Of a stretch of DNA of 64,000 nucleotides, positions 3,687-57,837 are shown one piece after another. A program made the position numbers and the translations under genes. This DNA is from Bradyrhizobium sp. 164 (GTDB taxonomy: Bacteria > Pseudomonadota > Alphaproteobacteria > Rhizobiales > Xanthobacteraceae), in NCBI RefSeq assembly GCF_023073715.1, contig NZ_JADPKA010000040.1, positions 62,001 through 126,000 of the forward strand, in the 5' to 3' direction. Positions within the stretch are counted from its first letter, which is position 1; every line of letters starts with the position of its first letter. A model generated the notes under the pieces. That model did no database searches, was not told the DNA's origin, and worked only from the letters and a program-made list of their open reading frames with translations.

Positions 3687-3748
3687 CGGGCGCGAGGCTT
3701 TGCGTCACCCATCGCAACCACATTGCGATCCTGCTATTGTCGCGCGCC

Positions 3749-4429: not shown

Positions 4430-4438
4430 TCACTGAGT

Positions 4439-5464: not shown

Positions 5465-5672
5465 TTTATAGGGGATACCGCCGCTCGCAGGCCCTCCGGT
5501 TAACACGGCGAATACGGCGGGGGAAGGGCGGCATCCCTGCCCCGCCCCGGCGCCGACTGGCCAGACCGGCTTCCGGATGGGATAGTCGGAAGACACCCCC
5601 TTCCCGGCAGGCGGGCATCGCCGTGCGAAAACGACGTCCAACCAGAACTGGAAACCCAGAAGGCCTCTGCCC

Positions 5673-6620
5673 ATGCCCGTTGTGCTCGATCCCGATGCTG
5701 CTGCCGTCTACAAGGCCTTCCAGCAGGCCGGCCGCCCGGCCTACGAGACCCTGACCGCACCGGAGGCGCGCGCCTATTATTCGCAGGCGCGCTTTGCCAC
5801 CAACCCCGAGCCGCCGGAGCTCGCCCGCGTCGCAGAGCTCGCGATCCCAGCGCCGCATGGGGTGATCCCTGCGCGCCTCGACGTGCCAAACGAGCCGCGC
5901 CGGCACGACGGCCTGTCGCCGGCGCTCGTGTTCTTCCATGGCGGCGGCTGGGTGATTGGCGATCTCGATTCCCACGACGTTGTCTGCCGCCAGCTCGCGG
6001 TCGAGGGCGCGCTGATCGTGATCTCGGTCGACTACCGCCTTGCGCCTGAGCACAAGTTTCCCGCCGCACCCGAGGACGCTATCGCCGCGACCGGATGGGT
6101 CGCCGCCAATGCGCGCGAGCTCGGTATCGACGCCTCGCGCCTCTCGATCGGCGGCGACAGCGCGGGCGGCAATCTCGCCGCGGTCGTGGCGCTCGCCGCG
6201 CGCCACGGCAACGGTCCCGCCCTCGCAGGACAGGTGCTGATCTATCCGGCGACCGATTTCGCCATGACGCACGGCTCCCACAGCGAGCCCGAGACCAGCG
6301 TGCTGCTGACCCATTCGGTGATCCGCTGGTTTCGCGACCACTATCTCAATGGCGCCGCCGACATCCATGACTGGCGCGCCTCGCCGGCGGGCGCGACGAG
6401 CCTTGCCGGCCTGCCGCCGGCCTACGTACTCACCGCCGGTGCCGATCCCCTGCGCGACGAAGGCGCCGAGTACGCCGCGCGCCTCAAGCAGGCCGGCGTG
6501 CCCGTCACTTACAAGCATTATCCCGGCCAATTCCATGGCTTCTTCACCATGGGAAAATTGCTGCGAGAGGCCAATGTCGCCGCGCGCGAGATCGGCGCGT
6601 GGTTGAAGGGATTGGGCTGA
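5673..6620 (+). CDS. HSL-family alpha/beta hydrolase (esterase)
   Basis: The protein has 315 residues with the hormone-sensitive-lipase signature: the oxyanion-hole motif HGGGW (89-93), the nucleophile Ser163 in GGDSAGGN, Asp258 in AGADPLRDEG and His288 in GQFHGF, giving a complete Ser-Asp-His triad. No signal peptide is seen, so it should be a cytoplasmic carboxylesterase; the substrate is unknown. It is divergent from the DUF2155 gene and 11 nt ahead of the permease at 6632, so the two are probably cotranscribed. A paralogue with the same motifs begins at the right end of the window (63540). Confidence 0.92.
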   Translation: MPVVLDPDAAAVYKAFQQAGRPAYETLTAPEARAYYSQARFATNPEPPELARVAELAIPAPHGVIPARLDVPNEPRRHDGLSPALVFFHGGGWVIGDLDSHDVVCRQLAVEGALIVISVDYRLAPEHKFPAAPEDAIAATGWVAANARELGIDASRLSIGGDSAGGNLAAVVALAARHGNGPALAGQVLIYPATDFAMTHGSHSEPETSVLLTHSVIRWFRDHYLNGAADIHDWRASPAGATSLAGLPPAYVLTAGADPLRDEGAEYAARLKQAGVPVTYKHYPGQFHGFFTMGKLLREANVAAREIGAWLKGLG

Positions 6621-6631
6621 ACGCCGTTTGC

Positions 6632-7639
6632 ATGGCCTCTCATCTTCGATCCCTCTTCGCCCTCCCCCTGCGCGGGCTGACATGGCTCGGCGGCCAGGGC
6701 ACCCGCGCGGTGGCGGCCATCGTGTTCATCGCCGTCGCCGTGCCGCCGCTCGGCGCGCTCCTGCGCCCCTATGTCACCGAGGCGATCTTCTTTCTGCTCT
6801 GCATCTCCTTCATGCGCGTCGATCTCGTGGCGCTGTACGGACATCTGCGCCGGCCGGCGCTGGTCGCGGCTGCCACCGCCTGGACCACGATCGGAGTGCC
6901 GCTGATCGTCGCCCTCGCCGCTTACGTGAGCGGGCTCACCACTAGCTCGCCCGGCCTTGCGCTTGCACTGATGCTCCAGGGCACGGCCTCGCCGATGATG
7001 GCCTCGCCGGCGCTCGCCGCGCTGATGGGCCTTGATGCCACCTTGGTGCTGGTCACGCTGGTGACCTCGACCGCGCTCGTGCCCTTCACGGCGTCCCTGT
7101 TCGCGAGCCTCTTTCTCGGCGGCATGCTCAGCATCTGGCCGCTGACGCTCGGCCTCAAGCTGCTCGGCATCCTCGCTGCCTCGCTGCTTGCCGCGACGAT
7201 CATCCGTCGCCTGTTCGGCACCGAGACGATCCAGCGCCACAAGCGGCCGATCGACGGCCTCAACATCGTTATCCTGCTGGTGTTCGCCTCTGCGGTGATG
7301 GGCAACGTCGCCACCGACCTCATCGCCGATCCCCTGTTCACGATCGCCGTCGCGCTGCTCGCGTTTATGGTCTACTTCACGCTGCTCGCCGTGACGACGC
7401 TGATCTTCCGTCGCATCGGCACCGAGCGCGCCTTCGCGATCGGCCTAATGGTCTCCCAGCGCAATCTGGGCCTGATGCTGGCAGCAACCGCCGGCGCGCT
7501 GCCGGCGACGACCTGGCTCTATTTCGCGCTGACGCAGTTTCCGATTCATCTTGCGCCGTACATGCTGATGCCGATCGCGCGGCGATTGACCGCGCGCGCA
7601 AATACTTCCGACGGGGCGACGGCAAGTAGCGCTACTTAA
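6632..7639 (+). CDS. BASS-like (bile acid:sodium symporter type) membrane permease
   Basis: The protein has 335 residues and about nine or ten hydrophobic helices with short polar loops. The repeat-like segments (LALMLQGTASPMMASPALAALMG and AIGLMVSQRNLGLML) fit the BASS superfamily, in which such broken helices bind sodium and substrate; BASS members carry organic anions. The ATG at 6632 was chosen over the GTG at 6599 because the latter lies inside the preceding esterase gene. Close spacing suggests the esterase releases, or acts on, the transported compound, but nothing in the sequence names it. Confidence 0.75.
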   Translation: MASHLRSLFALPLRGLTWLGGQGTRAVAAIVFIAVAVPPLGALLRPYVTEAIFFLLCISFMRVDLVALYGHLRRPALVAAATAWTTIGVPLIVALAAYVSGLTTSSPGLALALMLQGTASPMMASPALAALMGLDATLVLVTLVTSTALVPFTASLFASLFLGGMLSIWPLTLGLKLLGILAASLLAATIIRRLFGTETIQRHKRPIDGLNIVILLVFASAVMGNVATDLIADPLFTIAVALLAFMVYFTLLAVTTLIFRRIGTERAFAIGLMVSQRNLGLMLAATAGALPATTWLYFALTQFPIHLAPYMLMPIARRLTARANTSDGATASSAT

Positions 7640-7873
7640 GCAACGCATAATTCCGGATGTCTGCTTTTCGAGCGCAATCGGACGGGGGTCCCACGCTGCG
7701 AATGTCCTCTGTACGCCGAATCAGACGTTCAGTGCAGCATTCAGCTACAATGCCAGTTAACGCGGCCACTGTTTAAGTGTTTAAATCGTATATAACCTGC
7801 TTAGATCCTTAATTCGCAGGCCGCCGGCGGAGCGTATCCCGCGCCCCCTCAATGTTTCGATGACTGAGCGTCC

Positions 7874-8047
7874 TCAAACGGCTCTTGCTCTGCGGCCCAC
7901 TTTGGCACGCCGTCTTCGGCTGATTGTTCTCGCTTCTACGTTTCGGAGCCTTCTTCGAAGCGTCTCCACTTCTCTAAGCTCCGCCACAATCGCTTGCAAA
8001 CGTTCGCGCAGGACAGCGCAAGTATAAACCTGATCAGTGCTGGACAT
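7874..8047 (-). CDS. Small basic coiled-coil hypothetical protein
   Basis: The reading frame has 57 residues from the ATG at 8047, with GAGG 6 nt upstream. It holds a predicted helix (LRERLQAIVAELREVETLRRRL) and a strongly basic tail (SRRRRAKVGRRARAV). It lies 84 nt downstream of, and on the same strand as, the 45-residue gene at 8132-8269, so the two may be one transcript. I do not recognise the family, and a chance reading frame cannot be excluded. Confidence 0.45.
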   Translation of the reverse strand: MSSTDQVYTCAVLRERLQAIVAELREVETLRRRLRNVEARTISRRRRAKVGRRARAV

Positions 8048-8131
8048 CGCTGCCTCAGAATATGATTTGAACTCAGAAGTCGACGAAAACATCAAGAACA
8101 CCAAGGAAGTGAATATTCGCGAGGCCGAAAC

Positions 8132-8269
8132 TCAGTGAGCTAAAGCTGCAGTCGCCAGATGCTCCCAGTACTCTGCCTCTGCGAGCAATTTCCAGCTTCT
8201 CTCAGGGTAAAGCGCGGCAGTTTGCCGGCAAAGTGACGCCATTGCGCGAAAGCGGCGGGCAGCTTCCAT
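8132..8269 (-). CDS. 45-residue hypothetical protein, aromatic-rich helix
   Basis: This short gene runs from ATG 8269 to TGA 8132-8134 and is preceded at ideal distance by GGGAGG (5 nt). The protein begins MEAARRFRAMASLCRQ, continues with an ALYPERSWKLLAEAEYWEHLA core and ends in AH. This resembles small, cytoplasmic, probably helical proteins of unknown function that I associate with Bradyrhizobium. The Shine-Dalgarno site, the composition and the resemblance together make it a credible gene despite its size. Confidence 0.7.
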   Translation of the reverse strand: MEAARRFRAMASLCRQTAALYPERSWKLLAEAEYWEHLATAALAH

Positions 8270-8752
8270 TCCAACCTCCCGTGTTTTCCCCAACATATTT
8301 TTTTATTTTATGGTGGAGTCATCACGATTATCGAACATAACTAAATTTGTTATTTTGTCGCAGTTAATTAGGTTCCGACAGCGTGCCACGCGTGAACTAT
8401 TTTCGCTTTTGGCTTCACATCAATTTCGAATGCTTCAGTACTAGGTCGTGTTGCGCGCCGATTGCGCATCTCCGCCCAATCGGGCCTCCCCGCCGGAGCG
8501 TGCCGGGCGGCAACACAGCTATGCAAGCTCGTGAGCGAGCATCCCAGTGTCAGAAACCGAACCGACTGCCACCCGCGAACTCCTTTCTAATTGATCCGTT
8601 GCTGAGAACCTGAATCTTATTGGCGATTTAGCCCGGCGCAAATGCCGGGCTTATTCGCCATGCTCATCTCTGCGCCCAGCTCGAAGAACGACCACGTGCG
8701 TCGGCACCCGAGCCTTACCGGCGGCCATTCCACCAGCGGTCTCGTTCGGGGC
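8270..8752. other. AT-richer intergenic stretch with candidate structured RNA
   Basis: This is about 480 nt without a credible protein gene. Bases 8284-8375 are markedly AT-rich for this genome. Segment 8448-8516 can fold with closing arms GTGTTGC and GCAACAC around an inner CCGATTG/CAATCGG hairpin and a GC-rich second hairpin. A terminator-like hairpin lies at 8630-8651. Confidence 0.3.
8630..8655. terminator. Terminator-like hairpin
   Basis: A perfect 8-bp stem AGCCCGGC / GCCGGGCT with a 6-nt loop is followed by TTATT. It sits about 100 nt past the stop of the NYN gene (minus strand) and about 110 nt after the structured segment at 8448-8516, so it could end transcription from either side. 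Confidence 0.55.
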
Positions 8753-9376
8753 TCACTCCTCGAGCAAGCTATCATTTCCCTTGGGTCCCGCGATGGTCTG
8801 ACCTGGTGCCGGGCGATAGCGCAACTCGCGCTCGCGAGGTGCCGGGCGGTCAGACGGGTCGCGGCCGAGCTTGGATTGCAGCTCGAGGAGGTCGGTAAAG
8901 ACGTCGGCCTGGCGGCGCAGCTCGTCGGCGATCATCGGCGGCTGGCTGGCAATGGTGGAGACCACGGTGACCCGCACGCCGCGGCGCTGGACGGCCTCGA
9001 CCAGGGAGCGGAAATTGCCGTCACCCGAGAACAGCACCATCTGGTCGATATGCTCGGCGAGCTCCATGGCATCCACGGCGAGCTCGATGTCCATGTTGCC
9101 CTTGACCTTGCGGCGGCCGGAGGCGTCGATGAATTCCTTGGTTGCCTTGGTCACGACAGTGTAGCCGTTGTAGTCGAGCCAGTCGGTCAGGGGACGGATC
9201 GAGGAGTATTCCTGATCCTCGATGATGGCGGTGTAATAGAACGCCCGCAGCAACGTCCCCTGGCTCTGAAATTCCTTCAGCAGGCGCTTGTAATCGATGT
9301 CGAAGCCGAGCGTCTTGGCCGTGGCATAGAGATTGGCTCCGTCGATGAAGAGCGCAATCCGGTTGGAAGATGACAT
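8753..9376 (-). CDS. NYN-domain (LabA/DUF88-like) protein, putative ribonuclease
   Basis: The protein has 207 residues from the ATG at 9376 (AAGG 6 nt upstream). It matches the NYN/PIN-like fold: ALFIDGANLY with Asp12 at the first strand, the central GNMDIELAVDAM block, and LFSGDGNF with a further conserved Asp. These acidic residues form the metal site in NYN nucleases. The C-terminal 35 residues are polar and probably disordered. LabA/DUF88 proteins are taken to be RNA-acting, but no substrate is known here. It appears to be a single-gene unit. Confidence 0.88.
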   Translation of the reverse strand: MSSSNRIALFIDGANLYATAKTLGFDIDYKRLLKEFQSQGTLLRAFYYTAIIEDQEYSSIRPLTDWLDYNGYTVVTKATKEFIDASGRRKVKGNMDIELAVDAMELAEHIDQMVLFSGDGNFRSLVEAVQRRGVRVTVVSTIASQPPMIADELRRQADVFTDLLELQSKLGRDPSDRPAPRERELRYRPAPGQTIAGPKGNDSLLEE

Positions 9377-9877
9377 GATGCCTTGACTTCTGGGACGAGG
9401 TGGCATGCCGCGGGCTGAGTGCACATTAACGAAGGCGGCACGTTCAAACCCCTTTAAAAGCTCATGCTATACCGGCGATCATTAGCCTTCAAACGATTTG
9501 CTGTGAGCCGAAGATTAATTCGCAATATCCAAAGCACGGACAAACGTCTCGGATGAGACAGCGCATCTCCGTGGATGGGTGAGCCCGGGGCATTCTCGAC
9601 CTGTCCGCAAGCGCTGCAATCAAATCCTGATGCGCTTCAGTGCGCCATTTCCGCTGACCTATTTAGCCCACCCGCCTGGCGGCAAGAGGGGCTCAACCAC
9701 ATGAACTAGCCACTGCATTTTGCAAGCGTGAGCTGCTGGGAGCGCGTTCGGATTCGGCTCAGGATCTCGCAGCGGGCACACAATGAATCCATGGCGCTGC
9801 CAGATTTGAGCCGCATCGCGGCCCATCTTGCCGCGAAGGGTCGAACTGGTAGGGGGGCGCAACACCGGGAGTTTTCG
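9377..9877. other. Intergenic region, no supported feature
   Basis: Roughly 500 nt between the divergent NYN and secreted-protein genes. Short frames on both strands lack ribosome sites and recognisable products. The proximal part presumably holds the two promoters, but I cannot point to convincing -35/-10 pairs. Confidence 0.4.
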
Positions 9878-10615
9878 ATGTCCGGTTATTTGCGGCTTTG
9901 CTTGACGAGTTTAGTTCTTGTTGGAGCTCTTGCAGCGACACCTGCGTTTTCCAACCCTTTTGCCGATTTTTTCGGTAACGCTTCGCGCGAGCCCGCAGCA
10001 AGCCCTCCCGTGCAAGCGGAATGCTTGCCGCGGCCCGGCGACTCGCCCGGCGCGGGCCAACACTGGGTCTATCGGCGGGACGGCCATCGCAAATGTTGGT
10101 TCCTGGCCGAGGGTGTCACGAGGGTGCAAAAGCCGGCACATCGTCGCGCGGCCAACCGCGGCGCCAATCCCGACCAGAACGATGCCGCGCGGCTCAGGCG
10201 GAGCCCGGTGGTTGATGCACGCGCGGAGTTGCAACGCTCCGCACCGGCAGAGGGGGTCCAGCCGCCGCCGCCTGCACGCGAAGTCAAGGTAGCTGATGCC
10301 GCTCTCGTTGTCGGCACGGGCACGACGGCCGTGATGCCAGCCGCACCTTTCACCGCTCTTCCCACCGGCCAGTTCACGTCCGAACATTCCGTGCCGTTCC
10401 AAATTGACGTGGAGAAGCCCCTCGCGGCGGTACGCGACGCGGCCGCCGCCTCGGTGCCACCGGCTATTCCGGTGGGCATGCCCCCTGCGGAGGCGGGCGA
10501 TGGAGGAAAGGGCTGGACAGCAACCTGGCTGGGCTTGCTGCTGATGGTCCTGGGAATCGGCTCTGTCTTAAGCTCGAGCCGCGTGCTGCGCGAAGCGGTG
10601 CTGTTGCGCAGTTAA
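9878..10615 (+). CDS. Secreted hypothetical protein with C-terminal membrane helix
   Basis: The protein has 245 residues from the ATG at 9878. A signal peptide (LRLCLTSLVLVGALAATPAFS) precedes a small cysteine-containing domain (ECLPRPGD, then HWVYRRDGHRKCWFLAEG). I associate that second block with many short secreted proteins of Bradyrhizobium. The middle is low-complexity Ala/Pro/Arg, and a C-terminal hydrophobic stretch (TWLGLLLMVLGIGSVL) could anchor it. Two cysteines may form a disulphide. The function is unknown and no operon partner is evident. Confidence 0.75.
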   Translation: MSGYLRLCLTSLVLVGALAATPAFSNPFADFFGNASREPAASPPVQAECLPRPGDSPGAGQHWVYRRDGHRKCWFLAEGVTRVQKPAHRRAANRGANPDQNDAARLRRSPVVDARAELQRSAPAEGVQPPPPAREVKVADAALVVGTGTTAVMPAAPFTALPTGQFTSEHSVPFQIDVEKPLAAVRDAAAASVPPAIPVGMPPAEAGDGGKGWTATWLGLLLMVLGIGSVLSSSRVLREAVLLRS

Positions 10616-10852
10616 CGGAACGAAGCCCTGGCGCCACACCAGGCGGAGGAGCCCCAGTTCGGCGCGGACTGGCGGCTGGCGTGTCGCCTGATCGGCAACT
10701 CAATCTCGAGGTCGAGGCAGCGCCGGCGGCGTGACGGCCGCAAACTTTCCGCACGTCTTCGAGAACTCGCGCCGACGTCTCAGGCACGGTATCCGTCGCC
10801 TTTCAAATGCCGATGCGTTGGACCGCACGGCGAGGCCTCGTCCTCGCGCGCC

Positions 10853-48222: not shown

Positions 48223-48507
48223 CTACGCGACCGCCACGCGCTTGCGCTCGAAATCGTTGGGTACCTCGATATCGACCTCCAGGGTCGACACGTCGTCGCC
48301 GCGCTCGAGCCGAACGATGACCTTGGTCGGGTCCAGCTTGACGTGCTTGGACACGACGGCGAGTATTTCCTCACGCAGCACCCCGAGCAGATCGGGTTGG
48401 CCGCGTATCCCTCGTTCATGCGCGAGCAGGATCTGCAACCGTTCGCGAGCGACGGGAGCAGACGAGGCCTTGTTGCCGCGCAGAAGTCGGAGCAGACCCA
48501 TGCTCAT
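48223..48507 (-). CDS. minE: Cell division topological specificity factor MinE
   Basis: The protein has 94 residues. The ATG at 48507 overlaps the minD stop (ATGA) and is preferred; ATG 48501 is inside. The N-terminal membrane-targeting and MinD-contact helix is LLRLLRGNKASSAPVARERLQILLAHER, followed by the dimer beta-strands (LREEILAVVSKHV, KVIVRLERGDDVSTLEVDIEVP). MinE stimulates MinD ATPase to drive Min oscillation and keep MinC away from midcell. Last gene of minC-minD-minE. Confidence 0.97.
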   Translation of the reverse strand: MSMGLLRLLRGNKASSAPVARERLQILLAHERGIRGQPDLLGVLREEILAVVSKHVKLDPTKVIVRLERGDDVSTLEVDIEVPNDFERKRVAVA

Positions 48508-49319
48508 GCAGCCCTCCGTCGCAGCAGACGATCCATGAAGCCCTTGCGCTCGGTCGGAACCTGCATCGGCACGGTGTCGCCGCACAGCCGCCGCGCCGCG
48601 TCGATATAGGCCCGCGCGGGTGCGCCGTCCGCGTTCGACAGCGTCACGGGGGTACCGACGTTCGAGGCGCGCAACACGTCCTGGCTCTCGGGGATGATGC
48701 CGAGCAAAGGCGTGGCGAGGATCTCGAGAATGTCGTCGATGGTCAGCATCTCGCCGCGCGCGGCGCGGGAGGGATCGTAGCGGGTGATGAGAATGTGCTT
48801 CTCGACGCGCTCGCCCTTCTCGGCGCGCACCGTCTTGGAATCGAGCATGCCGATGATGCGATCGGAATCGCGTACCGAGGAGACTTCCGGATTGGTGACG
48901 ATCACGGCCTCGTCGGCAAAGCGCATGGCCATCGAGGCGCCGCGCTCGATGCCGGCCGGGCTATCGCAGATCACCCAGTCGAACCGGCTGCGCAGATCGG
49001 CGATGACCTTGCCCACGCCCTCCTCCGTCAGCGCATCCTTGTCGCGGGTTTGCGAGGCCGGCAGCAGCCAGAGATTCTCGAGCCGCTTGTCTTTGATCAG
49101 CGCCTGGGGCAGCTTGGCTACGCCCTGCACTACGTTGATGAGGTCGAACACCACGCGGCGTTCGGCGCCCATCACGAGGTCGAGATTGCGCAGGCCGACG
49201 TCGAAATCGACGACGACGACCTTGTCGCCGCGCTGCGCGAGCGCGGCCCCCAGTGCGGCAGTGGTCGTGGTCTTGCCGACCCCGCCCTTGCCTGATGTCA
49301 CGACCAGTACCTTAGCCAT
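48504..49319 (-). CDS. minD: Septum site-determining protein MinD
   Basis: The protein has 271 residues from the ATG at 49319. The deviant Walker A motif KGGVGKTTTT has the signature Lys (about 11-20). The other ATPase blocks are VVDFDVGLRNLDLVMG, VICDSPAGIERG and VTNPEVSSVRDSDRI. The C-terminus (LLRRRAA) is the amphipathic membrane-targeting helix. MinD binds the membrane with ATP and recruits MinC. It lies 19 nt after minC and overlaps minE. Confidence 0.98.
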   Translation of the reverse strand: MAKVLVVTSGKGGVGKTTTTAALGAALAQRGDKVVVVDFDVGLRNLDLVMGAERRVVFDLINVVQGVAKLPQALIKDKRLENLWLLPASQTRDKDALTEEGVGKVIADLRSRFDWVICDSPAGIERGASMAMRFADEAVIVTNPEVSSVRDSDRIIGMLDSKTVRAEKGERVEKHILITRYDPSRAARGEMLTIDDILEILATPLLGIIPESQDVLRASNVGTPVTLSNADGAPARAYIDAARRLCGDTVPMQVPTERKGFMDRLLRRRAA

Positions 49320-49338
49320 CTCAAAAATCTCCTTCTGG

Positions 49339-50037
49339 TCAGTTCAGCGCGGTAATTCGCATGGTGTTGCCTTGCAGAAAGGCTTGGGCAGGCTGGCCGC
49401 GCAGGGCGGCGTCGATATCGTCGGCAGTCTGATAAAACCCATCGATTGCAAGCAGTTCGGCTTCGATCTTCTGGCAGTAGATGCGCGCACTGGTGTGACC
49501 GTTGACCCCGGCCATGGCGCGGCCGCGCAACGCGCCGTAAATGTGAATTGAGCCGCCGGCGACGACCTCGGCGCCGGAGCCGACGGAGCCGAGAATGGTG
49601 ATGTCGCCCTCGGGGAAGATCACGGTCTGGCCCGAGCGCACGGGAGCCTCGAGCAGCAGCGAGGTCGGCTTGGTCTCGGCCTTCGTCTCGGTCTTCTTGG
49701 GCGCGTTCGGCTCGACCACACAGCTGCGTCCGCCCGACAGCAGCGGTGGCATCGTCGGGGTCAGCCTTGCCTCCTCCACGCCTTCAATGCCGAGCACGCG
49801 GATGTTGCGGTCCTGCAGGCTGGTCAAGAGATGGCCGATGCCGGCTTGGCTCAGATCGACCGAGGACAGGTCGATCACTACGGGCCGACCGGCAAAGAAG
49901 CCCGGCGAGCGGGCGATCGTCGCATCGATCTCCTGGAGCCAGTCCAGGATCGGAACGGTCGGCACGAACACGAAGGCCACATAGGAGCGCCCCCGCAGGC
50001 GCACCATTTGGCGTTGAGTTTTTACTGCAGCCTCCAT
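49339..50037 (-). CDS. minC: Septum site-determining protein MinC
   Basis: The protein has 232 residues from the ATG at 50037. The N-terminal FtsZ-inhibiting domain (about 1-105) is followed by a Lys/Thr/Glu linker and the C-terminal beta-helix that dimerises and binds MinD: FPEGDITILGSVGSGAEVVAGGSIHIYGALRGRAMAG at intervals, then ARIYCQKIEAELLAIDGFY. It inhibits Z-ring assembly at the poles. First gene of the operon. Confidence 0.97.
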   Translation of the reverse strand: MEAAVKTQRQMVRLRGRSYVAFVFVPTVPILDWLQEIDATIARSPGFFAGRPVVIDLSSVDLSQAGIGHLLTSLQDRNIRVLGIEGVEEARLTPTMPPLLSGGRSCVVEPNAPKKTETKAETKPTSLLLEAPVRSGQTVIFPEGDITILGSVGSGAEVVAGGSIHIYGALRGRAMAGVNGHTSARIYCQKIEAELLAIDGFYQTADDIDAALRGQPAQAFLQGNTMRITALN

Positions 50038-50302: not shown

Positions 50303-51319
50303 CTACTTCTTCACCTTGCTTGCATCCATCTTGATGGAGGGATCGAGCATCTTGGTCGTGAACGCCGTCGACACGTCGAACGGCTTCTCCATACCGAGAT
50401 AGGTTTGGACCAACTCGTAGTCTTTCTTCATCCGCTCGCCGTCGATCCAGCCGAGCGACTTCGTCGTCGTGAATTCGTCGGTCATCAGGGACTTGATGCG
50501 TTCCCACTGGCGCTCCTGGTTCTCCCTGTCGAGACCGGAGACCTGATCGAGCAGCGCCTTCAGGCATGGCGTGACGTCGGCGACGCAAGCTGCAAAGGCC
50601 TTCTGCGTGACGCGCACGAATTCCTCGACCACCTTGGGATTCTTCTGCAGATAAGCGCCGTTGACGATCAGCGAATTGCCATAAGGATTGAGCCCGATGT
50701 CCTTCCAGTTGATGTAGCCGAGATCGGGTCCGAACTCGATCACTTTCAGATCGTGCTCGTTGTAGAAGTCGCTGATGATGTCGACGGTGTGGCTCTTCAG
50801 CGCCGCGATCTTCGCGGTCGGCCCGACATTGACGAAGCCGACTGAATCTGGCGCAAGACCTGCGGCCTTGGCGAAGGCCGGCCACATCACGCGCGAGGCA
50901 TCGCCAGGCGGGTTGCCGATCTTGTGCCCGGCAAAGTCCTTCACGCCGTTCACGCCATAGCTCTTCAGCCAGTAGAAGGTCTGGCCGGTATTGGCATAGA
51001 CGCTCATCACCGCAACCGTGTCAGCGCCCTTGCTCTTGGCCACCAGCATGGTGGCGAGATCGGCGACGCCGAACGGCGAGCCGCCGGAGCCGACCTTGGC
51101 CGCGGAGACGCCGGAGCCTTTGCCGGTCTCGATCGTCAGGTCGATGCCCGCCTTCTCGTACCAGCCTTGAGCCTTGGCGTAATAATACGGCGAGTGATCG
51201 GCCGTCGGCGTCCAGTTCAGGATCAGATTGACCGCCTCGCCCGCGCGCGCAGGCATCGCCCACAGAGCGAGCGTCAGCGCCAAGACCAGGGCAGAGCCCG
51301 CCGCCTGCAAATGCTTCAT
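50303..51319 (-). CDS. ABC transporter substrate-binding protein (NMT1/THI5-like)
   Basis: The protein has 338 residues from the ATG at 51319 (GAGAGGTGCG upstream). A signal peptide (AGSALVLALTLALWAMPARA) leads to the NMT1/THI5 fold: VNLILNWTPTADHSPYYYAKAQGWYEKAGIDL, GVADLATMLVAKSKG and DLGYINWKDIGLNPYG at intervals. Family members bind thiamine-pyrimidine precursors, riboflavin, taurine-like or other small molecules. It is divergent from the TetR gene and, with the permease (52149) and ATPase (55850), makes a complete importer. A GNSLIVNGAYL block is conserved in the family; the ligand cannot be named. Confidence 0.92.
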   Translation of the reverse strand: MKHLQAAGSALVLALTLALWAMPARAGEAVNLILNWTPTADHSPYYYAKAQGWYEKAGIDLTIETGKGSGVSAAKVGSGGSPFGVADLATMLVAKSKGADTVAVMSVYANTGQTFYWLKSYGVNGVKDFAGHKIGNPPGDASRVMWPAFAKAAGLAPDSVGFVNVGPTAKIAALKSHTVDIISDFYNEHDLKVIEFGPDLGYINWKDIGLNPYGNSLIVNGAYLQKNPKVVEEFVRVTQKAFAACVADVTPCLKALLDQVSGLDRENQERQWERIKSLMTDEFTTTKSLGWIDGERMKKDYELVQTYLGMEKPFDVSTAFTTKMLDPSIKMDASKVKK

Positions 51320-51401
51320 CGCACCTCTCCTCATTGCCGCGACCCGGCTTGTCGCTCTCCCCATGTGAGGATACCAATGCAACAAGCCCGCCCTCAACTT
51401 G

Positions 51402-51417
51402 TCAACTATTTGGTTGG
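51402..51417. promoter_or_regulatory. Probable TetR operator (site 1)
   Basis: TCAACTATTTGGTTGG matches the perfect palindrome at 52068-52083 at 12 of 16 positions, including both outer half-sites TCAAC and GGTTG. It lies 2 nt before the TetR start and 82 nt from the binding-protein start, so it could control both. Confidence 0.7.
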
Positions 51418-51419
51418 AA

Positions 51420-52067
51420 ATGCCTGCAAAACGATCTGGCGACACCGTGCCGCAGCGCCGTGATCCCGTCGCCACCCGCAACAAGCTGCTCACCGCGGCG
51501 CGGCTGGAATTCGCCCGGCACGGCTTTGCGGGGGCCCGCGTCGACGAGATCGCCGAGCGTGCCGGCGTAAACAAGCAACTCGTCTATCACTATTTCGGCG
51601 ACAAGGACGCGCTCTACCTCGCCGTGCTCGAATGGGTCTATGAGGACATCCGCGAGCAGGAGCGCAAGCTCAAGCTCGAAGGCCTGCCGCCGGAAAAGGC
51701 CATCCGCAGGCTGATCGAAGCCTCGTTCGACCATCTAGCGGCAAACCCCGATTTCATCGTGCTTCTGAACGACGAGAACCGCGGCGGCGCTCGCCACGTC
51801 CGCGGCTCGACGCGGCTGGAGGCGATGCACTCCCCGCTGGTGAGAAGCGTCTCCCACATCCTCAACGAGGGGGTGCGCGCCGGCGTGTTCCGCAAGGGGA
51901 TCGATCCCGTTCAGCTCTATATCTCGATTGCGGGCCTCAGCTATTTCTTCTTCTCCAACACGCCGACGCTGTCGGCGATCTTCGGTAAGGACCTGTCGAG
52001 CCGCACCCAGCGCCGCGCCCGCCGCAGGCACGTCGCCGATTTGGTGCTGCAGTCGTTGCGGCCTTAA
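51420..52067 (+). CDS. TetR-family transcriptional regulator of the ABC cluster
   Basis: The protein has 215 residues from the ATG at 51420; a TTG at 51399 would overlap the operator. The N-terminal HTH is typical (LLTAARLEFARHGFAGARVDEIAERAGVNKQLVYHYFGDK at intervals), with the recognition helix NKQLVYHYF. The C-terminal domain holds a TetR_C-like helical bundle (DHLAANPDFIVLLNDENRGG, YISIAGLSYFFFSNTPTL). It very probably represses the divergent binding-protein gene, itself and the permease operon through the related sites at 51402 and 52068. Its inducer should be the transported compound or a breakdown product. Confidence 0.94.
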   Translation: MPAKRSGDTVPQRRDPVATRNKLLTAARLEFARHGFAGARVDEIAERAGVNKQLVYHYFGDKDALYLAVLEWVYEDIREQERKLKLEGLPPEKAIRRLIEASFDHLAANPDFIVLLNDENRGGARHVRGSTRLEAMHSPLVRSVSHILNEGVRAGVFRKGIDPVQLYISIAGLSYFFFSNTPTLSAIFGKDLSSRTQRRARRRHVADLVLQSLRP

Positions 52068-52083
52068 TCAACCAGCTGGTTGA
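52068..52083. promoter_or_regulatory. Perfect 16-bp palindrome, probable TetR operator (site 2)
   Basis: TCAACCAGCTGGTTGA is exactly its own reverse complement. It begins right after the TetR stop (TAA 52065-52067) and is 65 nt before the permease start. Confidence 0.82.
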
Positions 52084-52148
52084 AACTTCGCTCAAGGCCG
52101 GTTAGGCTCGTCGTAACGGCAAGTGACCGTCGCAACAGGGAGCAATCG

Positions 52149-52919
52149 GTGACAGGAGACGCGGCCCGCACCTCGCGCAGCTTTGCGATCATCCTGATCG
52201 TGCATCTTGCTGTGCTCGTGCTCTGGCAGGTCGCGGTGGATGCTTTCCACGTGCCGAAATTCATCCTGCCCTCGCCGCTTGCCACCGTGCAGACGCTGGC
52301 AACCACAGGCTATGCCTGGGGTGCCAACACGCTGGTGACGTTGATCGAGATCCTCGGCGGCTTCGCGCTTGGCGCCTTCGTCGGTGTCGCGCTGGCCGTG
52401 ATCTTCAGCTGGGCGCCGCTGCTCAGCCTCGCGCTGCTGCCGCTGTTCGTGACGCTGAACATGATCCCGAAGGTCGCGCTCGGCCCGCTCTTCATCGTCT
52501 GGTTCTCCTACGGCATCGTGCCGAACATTTTGATCGCCTTCAGCATCTGCTTCTTTCCGATCCTGCTCACCACTGCGCGCGGCCTGCGCGAGGTCGAGCC
52601 CGATCTGCTCGATCTCGTCAAATCGTTGCGCGGCTCGCGCTGGACGCTGTTCCGCAAGATCCAGTTGCCGGGATCGCTGCCTTACATCTTTTCCGGCATG
52701 AAGGTCGGCGCCATCCTCGCGGTGGCCGGCGCCATCGTCGGCGAGTTCATCGCCTCCGAGCGCGGGCTGGGCTACCTCATGATCCAGGTGCAATCGTCGC
52801 TCGACACGCCCGCGATGGTGATGGCCGTCGTGCTGCTGACGCTGCTCGGGGTCGCTCTCTACGGCCTGGTGCTCGCCCTCGAACGCATGTTCGTGGTTGG
52901 CGACGCGACACGGACCTGA
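52149..52919 (+). CDS. ABC transporter permease (SsuC/TauC/ThiX-like)
   Basis: The protein has 256 residues from the GTG at 52149 (AGGGAG 8 nt upstream). Six membrane helices are visible. The EAA loop (LVKSLRGSRWTLFRKIQLPGSLPYIFSGMKVG) and the AIVGEFIASERGLGYLM block are diagnostic of binding-protein-dependent permeases of the taurine/sulfonate/thiamine-precursor type. It is the first gene of a plus-strand operon and lies just after the operator at 52068. It should form a homodimer with the ATPase at 55850. Confidence 0.93.
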   Translation: MTGDAARTSRSFAIILIVHLAVLVLWQVAVDAFHVPKFILPSPLATVQTLATTGYAWGANTLVTLIEILGGFALGAFVGVALAVIFSWAPLLSLALLPLFVTLNMIPKVALGPLFIVWFSYGIVPNILIAFSICFFPILLTTARGLREVEPDLLDLVKSLRGSRWTLFRKIQLPGSLPYIFSGMKVGAILAVAGAIVGEFIASERGLGYLMIQVQSSLDTPAMVMAVVLLTLLGVALYGLVLALERMFVVGDATRT

Positions 52920-52945
52920 CAACGGCAGAACTAAGGACCAAATCC

Positions 52946-53983
52946 ATGTTGCTCACCCGCCAGACCCTGCCGAAGACCATCCCTGACGTCGCCGCGCTCG
53001 ACGAGCTCCTGTGCCGGCCGACGCAGGCACTGATCGACGACCTCGGGAAGGTCGAGGGCGACATCATGATCCTTGGCGTCGCCGGCAAGATGGGCCCGAC
53101 GCTGGCGGGGCTCGCAAAAGCTGCCGCGCCGGATCGCCGCGTCATCGGTGTCGCGCGCTTCAGCGACGCCAGCGTCAAGGACTGGCTGCACGCGCGCGGC
53201 ATCGAGACGATCAATTGCGATTTGATGGACGAAAGCGCCATTCACGCGCTGCCGAAGGCGCCCAACATCATCTTCATGGCCGGCCGCAAGTTCGGCGCGG
53301 AGGGCGATCTGTCGCTGACCTGGGCGATGAACGCGCATGTGCCGGCCCTGGTCGCGCAGGCCTTCCCCGCGTCCCGGATCGTGGCGTTCTCGACCGGCTG
53401 CATCTATCCTTTTGTCCCCGTCGACGGTAAGGGCTCGACCGAGGACATGGCGCCGAACCCGCCCGGCGAGTATGCCCAGTCCTGCGTCGGACGCGAGCGC
53501 ATGTTCGAATATTTCTCGCGCAAATTCGGAACACCGGGCCGCCTGTTCCGCCTCAACTACGCGATCGACATGCGCTATGGCGTGTTGCACGACATCGCCA
53601 TGAAAGTGCTGACGGGCACGCCAATCGACGTCAGCCTCGGCCACGTCAACTTCATCTGGCAGGGCGATGCGTCCGCCCAGGCGCTGCGCTGCCTCGCCCA
53701 TTGCACGACACCGACCTCCCCGATCAATGTCAGCGGCCACGAGATCCTCGCGGTGCGCGATCTCGCGCAGAAGTTCGGTGCGAGGTTCGGCCGCGCACCG
53801 GTGCTGACAGGCAAGGAAGAGCCGACGGCATGGCTGACCGACACGTCGAAAGCGGTCGAGTTGTTCGGTTTGCCCGTCGTCGACACCGAGCAATTGATCG
53901 CCTGGACTGCGGACTGGGTCTCTCGCGCCATGCCGACGCTCGGCAAGCCCACCAAATACGAGGTGCGCGATGGACGCTACTGA
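52946..53983 (+). CDS. NAD-dependent epimerase/dehydratase family protein with altered active site
   Basis: The protein has 345 residues from the ATG at 52946. It has an extended-SDR fold: the nucleotide turn ILGVAGKMGPTL (a variant of GxxGxxG), VIGVARFSD after strand 2, SxxxIY in FSTGCIYPF, and Tyr176 in the active-site motif. The usual Tyr-x3-Lys is Tyr-Ala-Gln-Ser-Cys (176-180), so Lys is replaced by Cys180. The C-terminal domain is intact (WQGDASAQALRCL, INVSGHEILAVRDLA). It overlaps the downstream GNAT gene by 14 nt. Its role in the pathway could be redox, epimerase or lyase chemistry on the imported compound. Confidence 0.88.
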   Translation: MLLTRQTLPKTIPDVAALDELLCRPTQALIDDLGKVEGDIMILGVAGKMGPTLAGLAKAAAPDRRVIGVARFSDASVKDWLHARGIETINCDLMDESAIHALPKAPNIIFMAGRKFGAEGDLSLTWAMNAHVPALVAQAFPASRIVAFSTGCIYPFVPVDGKGSTEDMAPNPPGEYAQSCVGRERMFEYFSRKFGTPGRLFRLNYAIDMRYGVLHDIAMKVLTGTPIDVSLGHVNFIWQGDASAQALRCLAHCTTPTSPINVSGHEILAVRDLAQKFGARFGRAPVLTGKEEPTAWLTDTSKAVELFGLPVVDTEQLIAWTADWVSRAMPTLGKPTKYEVRDGRY

Positions 53984-54791
53984 CGGTCTGTCCGTCATCA
54001 AGCTCGGCGTCGCCGATGCGAACGCCGGGCTGGCGCTGTCGACGGAAGCGCACTGGAACCAGACCGAAGAGGATTGGCTCGTTTTCCTGCGCGATGGTGT
54101 CGTGTTCGGCATCCGCGAGGGCGCGCGACTGGTGGCGACCGCAGCACTGCTGCCGTATTCCGACAACAACGCCTGGATCAGCATGGTGCTGGTGTCGGCA
54201 ACGCATCGCCGCCGTGGTCTGGCGACACGCCTCGTCGATGCCTGCCTGGAAGCGGCGCGCAAGAACGGTCTCACGAGCTGGCTCGATGCGACGCCCGACG
54301 GAGCCGCCGTCTACGGGCGCCTCGGCTTCACACCGACCCTGCAATTGCGGCGGCTGAAGCTGATGAAACCTACGCCGGCATCTGCGGAGGCGCCGTCGGC
54401 CGCAACGCTCGAGGCGCTTTGTGCCCGCGACCAGCGCGCCACAGGTTTCGACCGGACCGCTCTGCTGACCGCCCTCGCACAGCGCGCCGGGTCGCGTATC
54501 GTCGCAGCCAATAGCAGCATTGCGCTCGTCCGCGATGGCAGAACCGCGCGCCATATCGGCCCCATGTTCGCGGATCATGCCGTCGAAGCGCTGGCTCTGG
54601 TTCGCGTGATTGCGGGATCCGAGAATGGCCCGCTCCTGCTCGACGCTGTCGCCTCGCAACCCGCGTTCCTCGACGGATTGACCGCCTCGGGCTGGACCAT
54701 CGAGCGGCCGTTTCAGCGCATGCGGTTCGGCCCACCCACCGCCGCCGCCGAAGAAACGCCATTCGCCGTCGCCGGCCCCGAATTCGGATAG
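53970..54791 (+). CDS. GNAT acetyltransferase with C-terminal YitH-like domain
   Basis: The protein has 273 residues from the ATG at 53970. The N-terminal GNAT domain has the acetyl-CoA loop in VSATHRRRGLATRLVDACL (about 87-105) and the ATPDGAAVYGRLGF strand-helix. The second half (TGFDRTALLTALAQRAG, and GPMFADHAVEALALVRV, then GPLLLDAVASQPAFLDGL) resembles the YitH/HolE-type acetyltransferase domain that often follows a GNAT domain. It probably acts on a small molecule of the pathway. It starts within the epimerase gene and ends 6 nt before the DapA-like gene. Confidence 0.88.
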   Translation: MDATDGLSVIKLGVADANAGLALSTEAHWNQTEEDWLVFLRDGVVFGIREGARLVATAALLPYSDNNAWISMVLVSATHRRRGLATRLVDACLEAARKNGLTSWLDATPDGAAVYGRLGFTPTLQLRRLKLMKPTPASAEAPSAATLEALCARDQRATGFDRTALLTALAQRAGSRIVAANSSIALVRDGRTARHIGPMFADHAVEALALVRVIAGSENGPLLLDAVASQPAFLDGLTASGWTIERPFQRMRFGPPTAAAEETPFAVAGPEFG

Positions 54792-54797
54792 GACATC

Positions 54798-55853
54798 ATG
54801 CACCACAGCCAGATCAACAGCGACATCCGCAAGCTGATCGCCGAGGGCACCGTGCTGCCGGCGCATCCCCTCGCCCTCACCGCCGAGCGCCAGCTCGACA
54901 AGACGCATCAGCGCGCGCTGACGCGCTATTACGTCGATGCCGGCGCAGGCGGCCTTGCTGTCGGCGTGCACACGACGCAGTTCGCGATCCGCGACGTCGG
55001 CCTTTACCGTCCCGTGCTTGAGCTCGCCGCCGAGACAGCCGCGAGCTGGACCAAGCGTCCATTGGCGATGGTCGCAGGCCTTGTCGGCCCAACCAGCCAG
55101 GCAACCGCCGAGGCCCGCACCGCACGCGACATCGGCTATCACGCCGGCCTGCTCAGCCTCGCCGCGATGAAGAGCGCCTCCGAGGATGACATCATCGCGC
55201 ATTGCACGGCCGTGGCCGCGGAGATCCCGCTGGTCGGCTTCTACCTCCAGCCGGCCGTGGGCGGTGTCATCCTGTCCAGCCAGTTCTGGCAGCGCTTCGC
55301 CTCGATCGACAATGTCATCGCGATCAAGATCGCGCCGTTTAACCGCTATAGGACTCTCGACGTGCTCCGCGGTGTCGCAGCCGCAGCCGCACTCGACCGC
55401 GTCGCGCTCTACACCGGCAATGACGACCACATCCTGCTCGACCTCACCCTGCCATTCGACCTGCGCGACAAGGGCATCACCACGCGAACCTACTTCAAGG
55501 GCGGCCTGCTCGGCCATTGGTCGGTGTGGACCGCGAGCGCCATACAACTCTTCGAGCGCTGCAAGGCCGCGCGGCACAAGGACAGCGTTCCGGCCGACCT
55601 GCTCGCGCTCGATGCCCGCGTCACCGACTGCAACAGCGCGTTCTTCGACGTCGCCAACAACTTTCACGGCTGCATCGCCGGCTGCCACGAGGTGCTGCGG
55701 CGTCAGGGCCTGATGCAGGGCCTGTGGTGCCTCGATCCGAACGAGGGCCTCAGCCCCGGCCAGAAGCAGGAGATCGACCGCGTCTGTCGCGAGCACGCCG
55801 ATCTCAACGACGATGCCTTCGTCGCCGCCCACCTGAACAAATGGCTGGCATGA
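54798..55853 (+). CDS. DapA-family (dihydrodipicolinate synthase-like) lyase/aldolase
   Basis: The protein has 351 residues from the ATG at 54798, somewhat longer than the usual 290-310. The TIM-barrel markers are PLALTAERQLDKTHQRALTRYYVDAGAGGLAVGVH, VGFYLQPAVGG with Tyr149 (proton relay Tyr of the family), and NVIAIKIAPFNRYR with Lys177 as the Schiff-base lysine. GTTGE, a motif of true DHDPS, is replaced by GVHTT, so the product is not dihydrodipicolinate. Members cleave or form C-C bonds of 2-keto acids or related compounds. It overlaps the ATPase gene (ATGA). Confidence 0.88.
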   Translation: MHHSQINSDIRKLIAEGTVLPAHPLALTAERQLDKTHQRALTRYYVDAGAGGLAVGVHTTQFAIRDVGLYRPVLELAAETAASWTKRPLAMVAGLVGPTSQATAEARTARDIGYHAGLLSLAAMKSASEDDIIAHCTAVAAEIPLVGFYLQPAVGGVILSSQFWQRFASIDNVIAIKIAPFNRYRTLDVLRGVAAAAALDRVALYTGNDDHILLDLTLPFDLRDKGITTRTYFKGGLLGHWSVWTASAIQLFERCKAARHKDSVPADLLALDARVTDCNSAFFDVANNFHGCIAGCHEVLRRQGLMQGLWCLDPNEGLSPGQKQEIDRVCREHADLNDDAFVAAHLNKWLA

Positions 55854-56623
55854 GCTCCGAGCCCTTCATCAGCCTGCGCGGCGTCCGGAAAGTCTACCGC
55901 AGCGGCGGCGCCGAATTCCTGGCAGTCTCCGACGTCACCATGGACGTGCAGGAAGGTGAGCTGGTCTCGCTGGTCGGCCCTTCCGGCTGCGGCAAGACCA
56001 CGGTGATGAAGATCCTGGCCGGGCTGCACGGCGCCGACGGCGGCACAGTGACAATCGGCAACGCCAAGAGCCCGTTCGATCCGACCCGCGACATCGGCAT
56101 GGTGTTCCAGCAGGCGCTGCTCTTGAAGTGGCGCACCATTCTGGACAACGTGCTGCTGCCGGCCGAGATCGTCGGGCTGCCGATGAAGGCCGCGCGCGCG
56201 CGGGCGCACGATCTGCTCAATCTGGTCGGGCTTGCCGGCTACGAGCACAAATATCCGCAGCAGCTCTCCGGCGGTATGCAGCAGCGCACCGCGATCGCGC
56301 GCGCCTTCATTCACGATCCAAAGCTGATCCTGATGGACGAGCCGTTCGGTGCGCTGGATGCGCTGACGCGCGAGCAGATGAATCTCGAGATGCTGCGGAT
56401 CTGGCGTGAGAGCGGCAAGACCATCATCTTCGTCACGCACTCGATCCAGGAAGCCGTCTTCCTGTCCTCGCACTGCGCCGTGCTGACGGCGGGTCCGGCG
56501 AAGATGGCCGATTATTTCCCGATCGACCTGCCCTTCCCGCGCGACCTGCCGCTGAAAACCACGGATGCGTTCGGCGTCTATGCGCGAAGGATCTATGCGA
56601 AGCTGGGGCTGGGCGCGGCGTAG
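55850..56623 (+). CDS. ABC transporter ATP-binding protein
   Basis: The protein has 257 residues from the ATG at 55850, which overlaps the DapA-like stop. All ATPase motifs are present: Walker A GPSGCGKTT (about 41-49), Q-loop MVFQQALLLKW, signature LSGGMQQR, Walker B LILMDEPFGALD and the H-loop VTHSIQEA. It is of the SsuB/TauB/nitrate type and energises the permease at 52149. Last gene of the operon; dispersed repeats follow. Confidence 0.96.
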   Translation: MSSEPFISLRGVRKVYRSGGAEFLAVSDVTMDVQEGELVSLVGPSGCGKTTVMKILAGLHGADGGTVTIGNAKSPFDPTRDIGMVFQQALLLKWRTILDNVLLPAEIVGLPMKAARARAHDLLNLVGLAGYEHKYPQQLSGGMQQRTAIARAFIHDPKLILMDEPFGALDALTREQMNLEMLRIWRESGKTIIFVTHSIQEAVFLSSHCAVLTAGPAKMADYFPIDLPFPRDLPLKTTDAFGVYARRIYAKLGLGAA

Positions 56624-56745: not shown

Positions 56746-57837
56746 TCAGCTCTTGTTGCGTGTCTTGCTGAGCAGATAATTGTCGTAGAAGTTCTCCGCG
56801 ATCTGCGTGTAGAACAGCAGCTCCTTCATATAGGCGTCGTGGCTGTCCTTCGTCCGCCTGAACAGATCGCTCTTGGCGGCGAGCTCGTTCAGATGATCAT
56901 GAGTCGCGTTGTAGCAGGCCTCCAGCACCGGCTGCGGGAATGCCCTCAGCTCCGCGCCGTTGGCGATCAGCCGCTTCAGCGCCGCCGGATTCACGCTGTC
57001 GTACTTCTCGAGCATCCAGGCGCCGGCCGCAGATCCCGCCTGGTTGACGATCGCCTGATATTGCTTGGGCAGCGAGGCCCATTTCTCATCGTTGACGATC
57101 ATGTGCAGCATGGCTCCGCCTTCCCACCAGCCCGGGAAATAATAGTATTTGGCGACCTTCTGGAAACCGAGCTTCTCGTCGTCATAGGGACCGACGAATT
57201 CGGCGGCATCGATCGTGCCCTTCTCGAGGGCCGGATAGACATCGCCACCGGCGATCTGTTGCGGGACGACGCCGAGCCGCGCCAGCACATGGCCGCCCAT
57301 GCCCGCGATGCGGAATTTGAGTCCTTTGAGGTCGTCGACGGTCTTGATCTCCTTGCGGAACCAGCCGCCCATCTGGGTGCCGGAATTGCCGCAGAGGATG
57401 GCGTGGGCCTTGAAGGGTTTGAGCGCTTCGTTGGTGAGGTCGGCGCCGCCGCCGAAGTGCCACCATGATTCCTGGTGGCGATGGTTCATGCCGAACGGCG
57501 CGCCGGTGGCATAGGCCAGCGCCGGCTCCTTGCCGATGTAGAAATAGAGCGGCGTCTGCGCCATCTCCACCGAGGCGGTGCTGACGGCATCGAGCGCCTG
57601 CAGGCCGGGCACGAGCTCGCCGGCGGCGAAGGTCTGGATCTGGAATTTATTGTCGGTCGCTTCCGCGACGTATTTCGCGAACGTCTGCGCCGTACCGTAG
57701 ATGGTGTCGAGCGACTTCGGGAAGCTCGAGGTTAGGCGCCATTTGATCTCGGGCGCGCCTTGCGCGAGCGCAGGGGCCGCAACCAGAGTCGTCGCGCCGG
57801 CGACTGCGCCGCCCTTGAGGAATGTACGGCGTTTCAT
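56746..57837 (-). CDS. TRAP transporter substrate-binding protein (DctP-like), Tat-exported
   Basis: The protein has 363 residues from the ATG at 57837. The leader MKRRTFLKGGAVAG has the twin-arginine Tat signal RRTFLKG. The mature protein matches the DctP fold: WRLTSSFPKSLDTIYG, ALAYATGAPFGMN, LKGLKFRIAGMGGHVLARLG (the carboxylate-binding Arg lies in KFRI), and DAAEFVGPYDDEKLG. Such proteins deliver organic acids to the DctQM membrane subunits. No DctQ or DctM gene is next to it. It converges with the ABC operon; a link is not evident. Confidence 0.9.
   Translation of the reverse strand: MKRRTFLKGGAVAGATTLVAAPALAQGAPEIKWRLTSSFPKSLDTIYGTAQTFAKYVAEATDNKFQIQTFAAGELVPGLQALDAVSTASVEMAQTPLYFYIGKEPALAYATGAPFGMNHRHQESWWHFGGGADLTNEALKPFKAHAILCGNSGTQMGGWFRKEIKTVDDLKGLKFRIAGMGGHVLARLGVVPQQIAGGDVYPALEKGTIDAAEFVGPYDDEKLGFQKVAKYYYFPGWWEGGAMLHMIVNDEKWASLPKQYQAIVNQAGSAAGAWMLEKYDSVNPAALKRLIANGAELRAFPQPVLEACYNATHDHLNELAAKSDLFRRTKDSHDAYMKELLFYTQIAENFYDNYLLSKTRNKS

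Follow-up and report, generated by a model that had tools for sequence, protein, structure and literature searches.

Organisation of the locus

The window analysed here is a stretch of 64,000 nucleotides from Bradyrhizobium sp. 164, and this report concerns a cluster of seven genes at positions 50303-56623 of it, which we read, with a probability of about one half, as a TetR-repressed, ligand-induced island for the uptake and catabolism of a polyhydroxylated ring, ending in an aldol-type cleavage. A THI5/NMT1-type periplasmic solute-binding protein (50303-51319; PF09084, 2.4e-40) is encoded on the minus strand, divergent from a TetR regulator on the plus strand (51420-52067). The regulator is followed on its own strand by an ATP-binding cassette (ABC) permease (52149-52919; BPD_transp_1), an 'epimerase-like' enzyme with the short-chain dehydrogenase/reductase (SDR) fold (52946-53983; Epimerase PF01370, 1.4e-09), a two-domain GNAT protein (53970-54791; Acetyltransf_1 and Acetyltransf_18), a DapA-like TIM barrel (54798-55853; DHDPS PF00701, 3e-07) and an ABC ATPase (55850-56623; ABC_tran). 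These genes and their tight packing had been described in an earlier, sequence-only reading of this DNA, and both are exact on the open reading frame (ORF) coordinates: the SDR and GNAT genes overlap by 14 nt, 6 nt separate the GNAT gene from the DapA-like gene, and the latter shares an ATGA with the ATPase gene.

All seven proteins fall into known Pfam families, weakly so for the SDR (38.2 bits) and the DapA-like protein (29.9 bits, above the cut-off of 22.1, with PF00701 as its only Pfam match). Among the NCBIfam matches listed (for the ATPase, the best 25 of 185) no cut-off was reached by any of the seven; the DapA-like protein lies far below its own (23.4 of 278 and 18.8 of 281 bits), and the SDR has no NCBIfam match.

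The sequence-only reading had proposed a search for conserved synteny. All seven genes are present in the same order and on the same strands in 67 of the 80 named loci that match best among 568 relatives. The outcome that would have spoken against the cluster, rare co-occurrence of the enzymes with the transporter, is not seen among these close relatives; they are mostly Bradyrhizobium, and the sequence sets are redundant, with near-identical Bradyrhizobium sequences and some genomes present twice. The 13 deviating loci comprise three at contig starts (L066, L082, L113), three in which TetR was not matched (L095, L101, L102), L104, two from Burkholderiales (L108, L109), three from Rhizobiaceae (L110-L112) and one from Falsigemmobacter (L114).

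The TetR regulator and its putative operators

The regulator has a TetR_N domain and a C-terminal TetR_C_29 domain, and its gene is flanked by two putative operators. The first, TCAACTATTTGGTTGG (51402-51417), lies directly 5' of the TetR start codon and is conserved in relatives; the second is a near copy and a perfect palindrome, TCAACCAGCTGGTTGA (52068-52083), which starts immediately downstream of the TetR stop codon. Two operator types, TCAACY-N4-RGTTGA and GTAACY-N4-RGTTAC, were surveyed across loci with at most one mismatch. A TCAAC-type site stands beside TetR in all 69 loci whose regulator is at least 58% identical (the window locus included), with at least two sites in 66 of them. 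The 45 loci with a more distant TetR divide into 14 with a TCAAC-type site, 23 with a GTAAC-type site and eight with neither. Shuffled flanks, used as a control, gave nearly no sites of these types. With a narrower pattern, applied to 71 loci in which TetR adjoins the permease gene, the best site departs from the pattern at 0-2 positions in 69 loci on the upstream side of TetR and in 65 on its downstream side, and control stretches within the TetR gene have best sites with 3-7 mismatches. Because at least one site adjoins TetR in 69 of 69 loci, predicted control of the cluster by this regulator, also claimed in the sequence-only reading, can be regarded as well supported; repression would be the expected direction of that control in the TetR family.

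The placement of these sites over larger stretches of DNA was also examined. In 77 loci (1.37 Mb) perfect sites of the two types number 33 and 37, and six control palindromes gave 0, 0, 0, 0, 3 and 0; when one mismatch is allowed, one of the controls (GATCA) equals the operators in frequency. A search of 13 whole genomes (two of which have none) gave 20 exact GTAAC sites, 18 of them at the DapA cluster, and a search of 13 genomes for exact TCAAC-type sites gave 25, with 16 at the cluster and at least one there in each genome; the reversed controls for the GTAAC and TCAAC searches gave 9 and 2. In the genome of the window itself the sole perfect match to TCAACYANNTGGTTGA is operator 2 of the window locus, and three other places match with one mismatch. 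This genome-wide placement, together with the single perfect match at home, suggests that TetR is a local regulator dedicated to the cluster.

RutR is the best-scoring NCBIfam model for this TetR. RutR proper was rejected, the TIGR03613 equivalog scoring 62.1 against a cut-off of 368 bits. The window operators presumably share with RutR a CCA-NN-TGG-like core, and their arms differ.

Two enzymes with replaced motifs

The DapA-like protein belongs by fold to the superfamily of dihydrodipicolinate synthase (DHDPS) and N-acetylneuraminate lyase (NAL), which are class I aldolases, and has in common with them the TIM barrel and a lysine on strand 6. In a set of 169 sequences (one of 170 matches was dropped as too short) this residue, Lys177, is invariant; in the alignment it falls on the lysine with which DHDPS and NAL form their Schiff base, and it lies in strand 173-178 of the predicted model. 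The loop after strand 2, which in the DHDPS family holds the carboxylate of the keto acid, is of GTTGE type, and reads GGSTGE in an aligned chain. The DapA-like protein differs in having at residues 57-62 the motif VHxTQF (V-H-[TSA]-T-Q-F), found in 169 of 169 sequences and reading VHTTQF in the window protein, and in having extra conserved C-terminal residues. A tyrosine after strand 5, a further feature in common with the superfamily, is kept in 165 of the 169. The predicted model, built from the window protein and 24 of 35 listed non-redundant relatives, has a mean pLDDT of 75.6, and its top structural match, among many tied rows, is 2r8w (Z 26.8, root mean square deviation 3.6, 291 residues aligned).

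A comparable replacement is seen in the SDR. In 128 of 159 matches (31 were too short) the active-site tyrosine is invariant, and the lysine four residues further on, which completes the YxxxK motif, is absent from all 128, being Cys in 124 and Val in four; the window protein reads YAQSC. The fold, the glycine-rich nucleotide loop of the Rossmann fold (here GVAGKMG) and the conserved tyrosine are shared with the extended SDR family, such as GalE and TerB, from which the window SDR is set apart by the missing lysine. Its model (window protein and 24 of 40 listed relatives; pLDDT 86.4) is closest to TerB 6nd7 (Z 27.1, root mean square deviation 3.1, 290 aligned, 21% identity), which has Lys where the window SDR has Cys. 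The labels 'DapA-family lyase' and 'epimerase-like', given from the sequence alone, are therefore only partly apt: the folds and families fit, and the key motifs of both have been replaced.

The two replacements vary together in four loci (L117, L123, L165 and L172), where an SDR reading YANSV (Cys180 to Val) is paired with a DapA-like protein in which Tyr149 has become Ala or Ser. These paired changes may represent a single inherited event. Genes for a CoA-transferase, an enoyl-CoA hydratase and an FAD oxidoreductase also occur nearby in L117 and L123.

Distribution of the pair and its partners

At the level of strong matches (E <= 1e-40) the count is 55 among 296 family genomes, 35 among 385 from the class and 12 among 398 from the phylum. 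Twenty plasmid records also match, 19 of them with a query coverage of at least 80%, and their carriers include Streptomyces, Rhodococcus, Paenibacillus, Mesobacillus and the planctomycete Aquisphaera. A gene for an NAD-dependent epimerase or oxidoreductase lies next to the DapA-like gene, or one gene from it, in all ten of the annotated plasmids among the 11 inspected; the eleventh carried no annotation. The DapA-like and SDR genes thus occur together in Proteobacteria, Actinomycetota, Bacillota and Planctomycetota, and as the pair is present in at least four phyla its substrate is probably common in the environment. The transporter beside the pair varies and may be a sugar-type ABC system, a tripartite tricarboxylate transporter, an MFS protein or a second THI5-type system. 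Distance matrices of DapA, SDR and GNAT correlate at 0.78-0.80 (62 loci), a signal that co-evolution and shared ancestry would give alike.

Partner genes were surveyed by ORF clustering in 77 loci chosen mostly outside Bradyrhizobium, with a second locus of the window's own genome included; the counts come from a simple ORF picker, by which some frames were mis-started and some genes perhaps missed, and families were named from one representative each, ten cluster representatives being scanned. In the 76 loci with a DapA-like gene the partners are SDR (66), GNAT (57), TetR (52), an enolase-like protein (22), a MetE-like protein (21), a Gfo/Idh/MocA dehydrogenase (20), two xylose-isomerase-like PF01261 barrels (19 and 15), DUF993 (15), a CrtO-like flavoprotein (15), an amidase (11) and PhyH (8). 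In Aquisphaera the SDR/GNAT/DapA trio lies near a Gfo gene, a PF01261-type gene and a PF06439 3-keto-disaccharide hydrolase gene.

It could be argued that these genes are mere neighbours with no single pathway in common, and the SDR was indeed not found in ten of the 76 DapA loci, a number that includes short contig ends. Set against the conserved order, the overlapping reading frames, the shared operators and the recurrence of the same pair next to different transporters in other phyla, this view is already hard to hold and we give it very little credence. The operators in particular extend to the partners. In L162, L164 and L171 GTAAC operators lie between or before the binding-protein and DapA-like genes and again before the Gfo gene, so that the partners appear to be tied into one regulon. 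In L162 and L164, two loci of a single genus, Gfo is the first gene of a Gfo-DUF993-PF01261 run; these two loci also have a site with one mismatch that precedes the SDR, between it and the MetE-like gene.

In the genome of the window the partners are found in a second locus (L175; contig C99, 5000-24000, at 1882-10654), which contains a TetR, its own THI5-type ABC set, an enolase-like protein, a Gfo/Idh/MocA dehydrogenase, a DUF993-cluster protein and a PF01261-type barrel. A complete pathway within the window was accordingly rejected, and the gene content suggests that the window combines a predicted importer with one module of a more extensive pathway. The proposal that importer and enzymes serve one compound holds in so far as transporter and enzymes are linked; it does not extend to a complete pathway, with partners elsewhere in the genome, or to a fixed importer.

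The Gfo partner of this genome resembles scyllo-inositol/L-glucose, anhydrofructose (reductase)-type and other putative dehydrogenases. Two of the second-locus proteins are very close to PDB 3oqb (an oxidoreductase) and 3ju2 (SMc04130)/3qc0, and the DUF993 partner from L149 is very close to 4dnh; the PDB listings of these entries state no specific function. The S. meliloti genes SMc04130-04134 occur in two papers and SMc04135-04139 in one of these; the passages, which deal with PhaR and with regulatory networks, list some of the genes and give them no function. The enolase-like protein, of about 480 residues (L145, 6031-7476, and relatives), is enolase-superfamily-like with a weak muconate-cycloisomerase match only; it has no Pfam family, and its relative in the window's genome has no PDB sequence match. 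Across the 296 genomes of the family the DapA-like and enolase-like genes are present in 55 and 103 respectively and together in 34 (odds ratio 4.0, significant overall).

Substrate and proposed pathway

The breakdown of a compound, the class of substrate, the order of reactions and the roles of the SDR and GNAT proteins are what we infer here. A sugar-, cyclitol- or glycoside-like substrate is ranked first, at about even odds. In the pathway that we propose, TetR without its ligand would sit on the two operators and silence the binding-protein gene, its own gene and the permease-SDR-GNAT-DapA-ATPase operon, and an inducer, probably the imported compound or its product, would free it. The THI5-type importer would then take up a polyhydroxylated ring, which may be a sugar, a cyclitol or a glycoside with an aglycone fitting a THI5-type pocket. 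A hydroxyl would be oxidised by the Gfo/Idh/MocA dehydrogenase of the second locus, and the resulting ketone isomerised or dehydrated by the xylose-isomerase-like barrels. The carbon skeleton could then be brought to aldol-type cleavage by the lysine-less SDR together with the Schiff-base enzyme of DapA type, and the GNAT protein would probably acylate an amino intermediate or protect a by-product.

A likeness to this scheme is found in levoglucosan catabolism (LgdA/LgdB/LgdC), for which the main text of PMC10066097 describes a Gfo/Idh/MocA dehydrogenase, PF01261 barrels and an ABC transporter, a combination shared with the partner set. The words dihydrodipicolinate and aldolase are absent from that main text, which sets the Lgd pathway apart from ours. 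The levoglucosan dehydrogenase model is the best one for the Gfo cluster, but the partner from L138 scores 58 of 650 bits, far below the cut-off and not at LgdA level.

Instead of supplying carbon, the same genes might serve in salvage, repair or detoxification, with the lysine-less SDR as a non-redox isomerase or dehydratase and the GNAT protein disarming an amine. The loss of the SDR lysine in all 128 sequences, the GNAT gene in three quarters of the DapA loci (57 of 76) and the change of transporter between lineages would suit such a role. The linked importers and the dehydrogenase and isomerase partners look catabolic, and we regard this explanation as improbable.

The importer itself is less easily reconciled with a sugar. 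THI5/NMT1-type ABC importers are those for thiamine-pyrimidine, sulfonate and nitrate, and their binding-protein, permease and ATPase families are all matched here; the window set differs in falling below specific cut-offs among the matches listed and in being linked to SDR, GNAT and DapA-like enzymes. PDB relatives of the binding protein are 4nmy (2.3e-17), for which no ligand is given, and 3ix1 (8.1e-16), a protein that binds formylaminopyrimidine. An organosulfonate or similar acid, as for the SsuA and TauA relatives of the transporter, would explain why an SsuA-family model matches the binding protein (51.5 bits) and a taurine ATPase model the ATPase (207.6 bits). These scores are far under the curated cut-offs (163.5 and 357; TauA 31.1 of 304.25), and no sulfonate-cleaving enzyme was seen among the ten cluster representatives scanned. 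Sulfonate or taurine uptake was thus rejected as an assignment, and a substrate of this kind is very unlikely.

Several observations weigh against the polyhydroxylated-ring interpretation. Where a ligand or role is named for a solved relative of the binding protein (3ix1, THI5, THI13), it is a pyrimidine one, these proteins binding or making thiamine-pyrimidine precursors. To our knowledge, sugars are not the usual ligands of binding proteins of the THI5 type. In one locus (L134, 2273-12364) the SDR-DapA pair lies between nitrilase-like and RutA-like monooxygenase, class III aminotransferase-like and hydantoinase-like genes, all named by eye, and this company points to an N-heterocycle. The second locus carries neither operator type, and the predicted co-regulation finds no support there. 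Outside the genus of the window the co-occurrence of DapA-like and enolase-like genes is weak (15 with both, odds ratio 1.9, p 0.08). An hhalign comparison of the DapA-like protein with DUF993 (PF06187) is colinear, ending in a YTG motif, and not significant (probability 0.6, E 0.1). Of the 20 plasmids with the gene, 17 are predicted to be non-mobilizable. Finally, nine of the 25 exact TCAAC-type sites lie away from the cluster; the two that were inspected are in seemingly unrelated regions (oligopeptide-transporter and polysaccharide-type, named by eye), and these sites may therefore be chance matches.

The solved relatives and the L134 locus are the points on which a pyrimidine-like N-heterocycle or nucleoside could be proposed, sensed by TetR, imported by the THI5-type system and processed at its side chain or ring by the enzymes. 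The RutR likeness of the regulator, low as its score is, would agree. Against this, such gene company was seen in a single locus, the partners that recur are Gfo/Idh/MocA and PF01261 proteins, sugar-type ABC genes stand beside the pair in Streptomyces, Glaciihabitans and Paenibacillus, and no dihydropyrimidinase or ureidopropionase family was found among the ten cluster representatives. We therefore consider an N-heterocycle doubtful as the substrate. A conjugate of a sugar and an N-heterocycle would fit both sets of clues.

Beyond the proposed polyhydroxylated-ring island itself, a wider scheme can be put forward only tentatively. The pair may belong to a phylum-spanning route, in which a lysine-less SDR is paired with a Schiff-base aldolase that has lost its recognition of alpha-keto acids. 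The two would jointly break a C-C bond in the ring of an oxidised sugar or cyclitol; further steps, as yet undescribed, would fall to the enolase-like and DUF993 proteins, and the transporters would be lineage-specific. The route would probably have spread horizontally, as judged from its patchy distribution rather than from a gene tree. If the reading of these genes as one pathway is correct, 3oqb, 3ju2/3qc0, 4dnh, a DUF and a protein of about 480 residues that belongs to no Pfam family would find their place in it as steps, and it could be reached through a TetR with an already predicted operator; two new chemistries would then be there to assign, that of the lysine-less SDR and that of the aldolase-like protein with the VHxTQF motif. 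The earlier description of the cluster as undescribed agrees with the curated equivalog families and the literature searched, in which no match was found. No description of this pathway or enzyme pair was met with in the literature, of which few subscription papers were covered, so that absence is no proof of novelty; no paper on DUF993 was found, and a search on psychrophile sugar isomerase gave nothing relevant among the matches listed.

Start codons and flanking genes

For three genes, TetR, permease and binding protein, we think that the longest ORFs begin too early, at TTG 51399, TTG 52080 and TTG 51574 respectively. The first two starts are unlikely because they fall just before or inside the operator-like palindromes. 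ATG 51420 for TetR and GTG 52149 for the permease are likelier, AGGGAG being found just 5' of the favoured start, and ATG 51319 is likelier for the binding protein, as read off the ORF list. Scans near the operators and the operon end found no promoter (0.2 expected) and no terminator (0.4-0.9 expected). Immediately upstream of the cluster (48223-50037) are what we take to be MinE/MinD/MinC-like cell-division genes, and convergent with the operon (56746-57837) is presumably a TRAP-type solute-binding protein gene. In L104 a dimethylformamidase-like large protein, named by eye, is encoded (2659-4896) near the GNAT and DapA-like genes.

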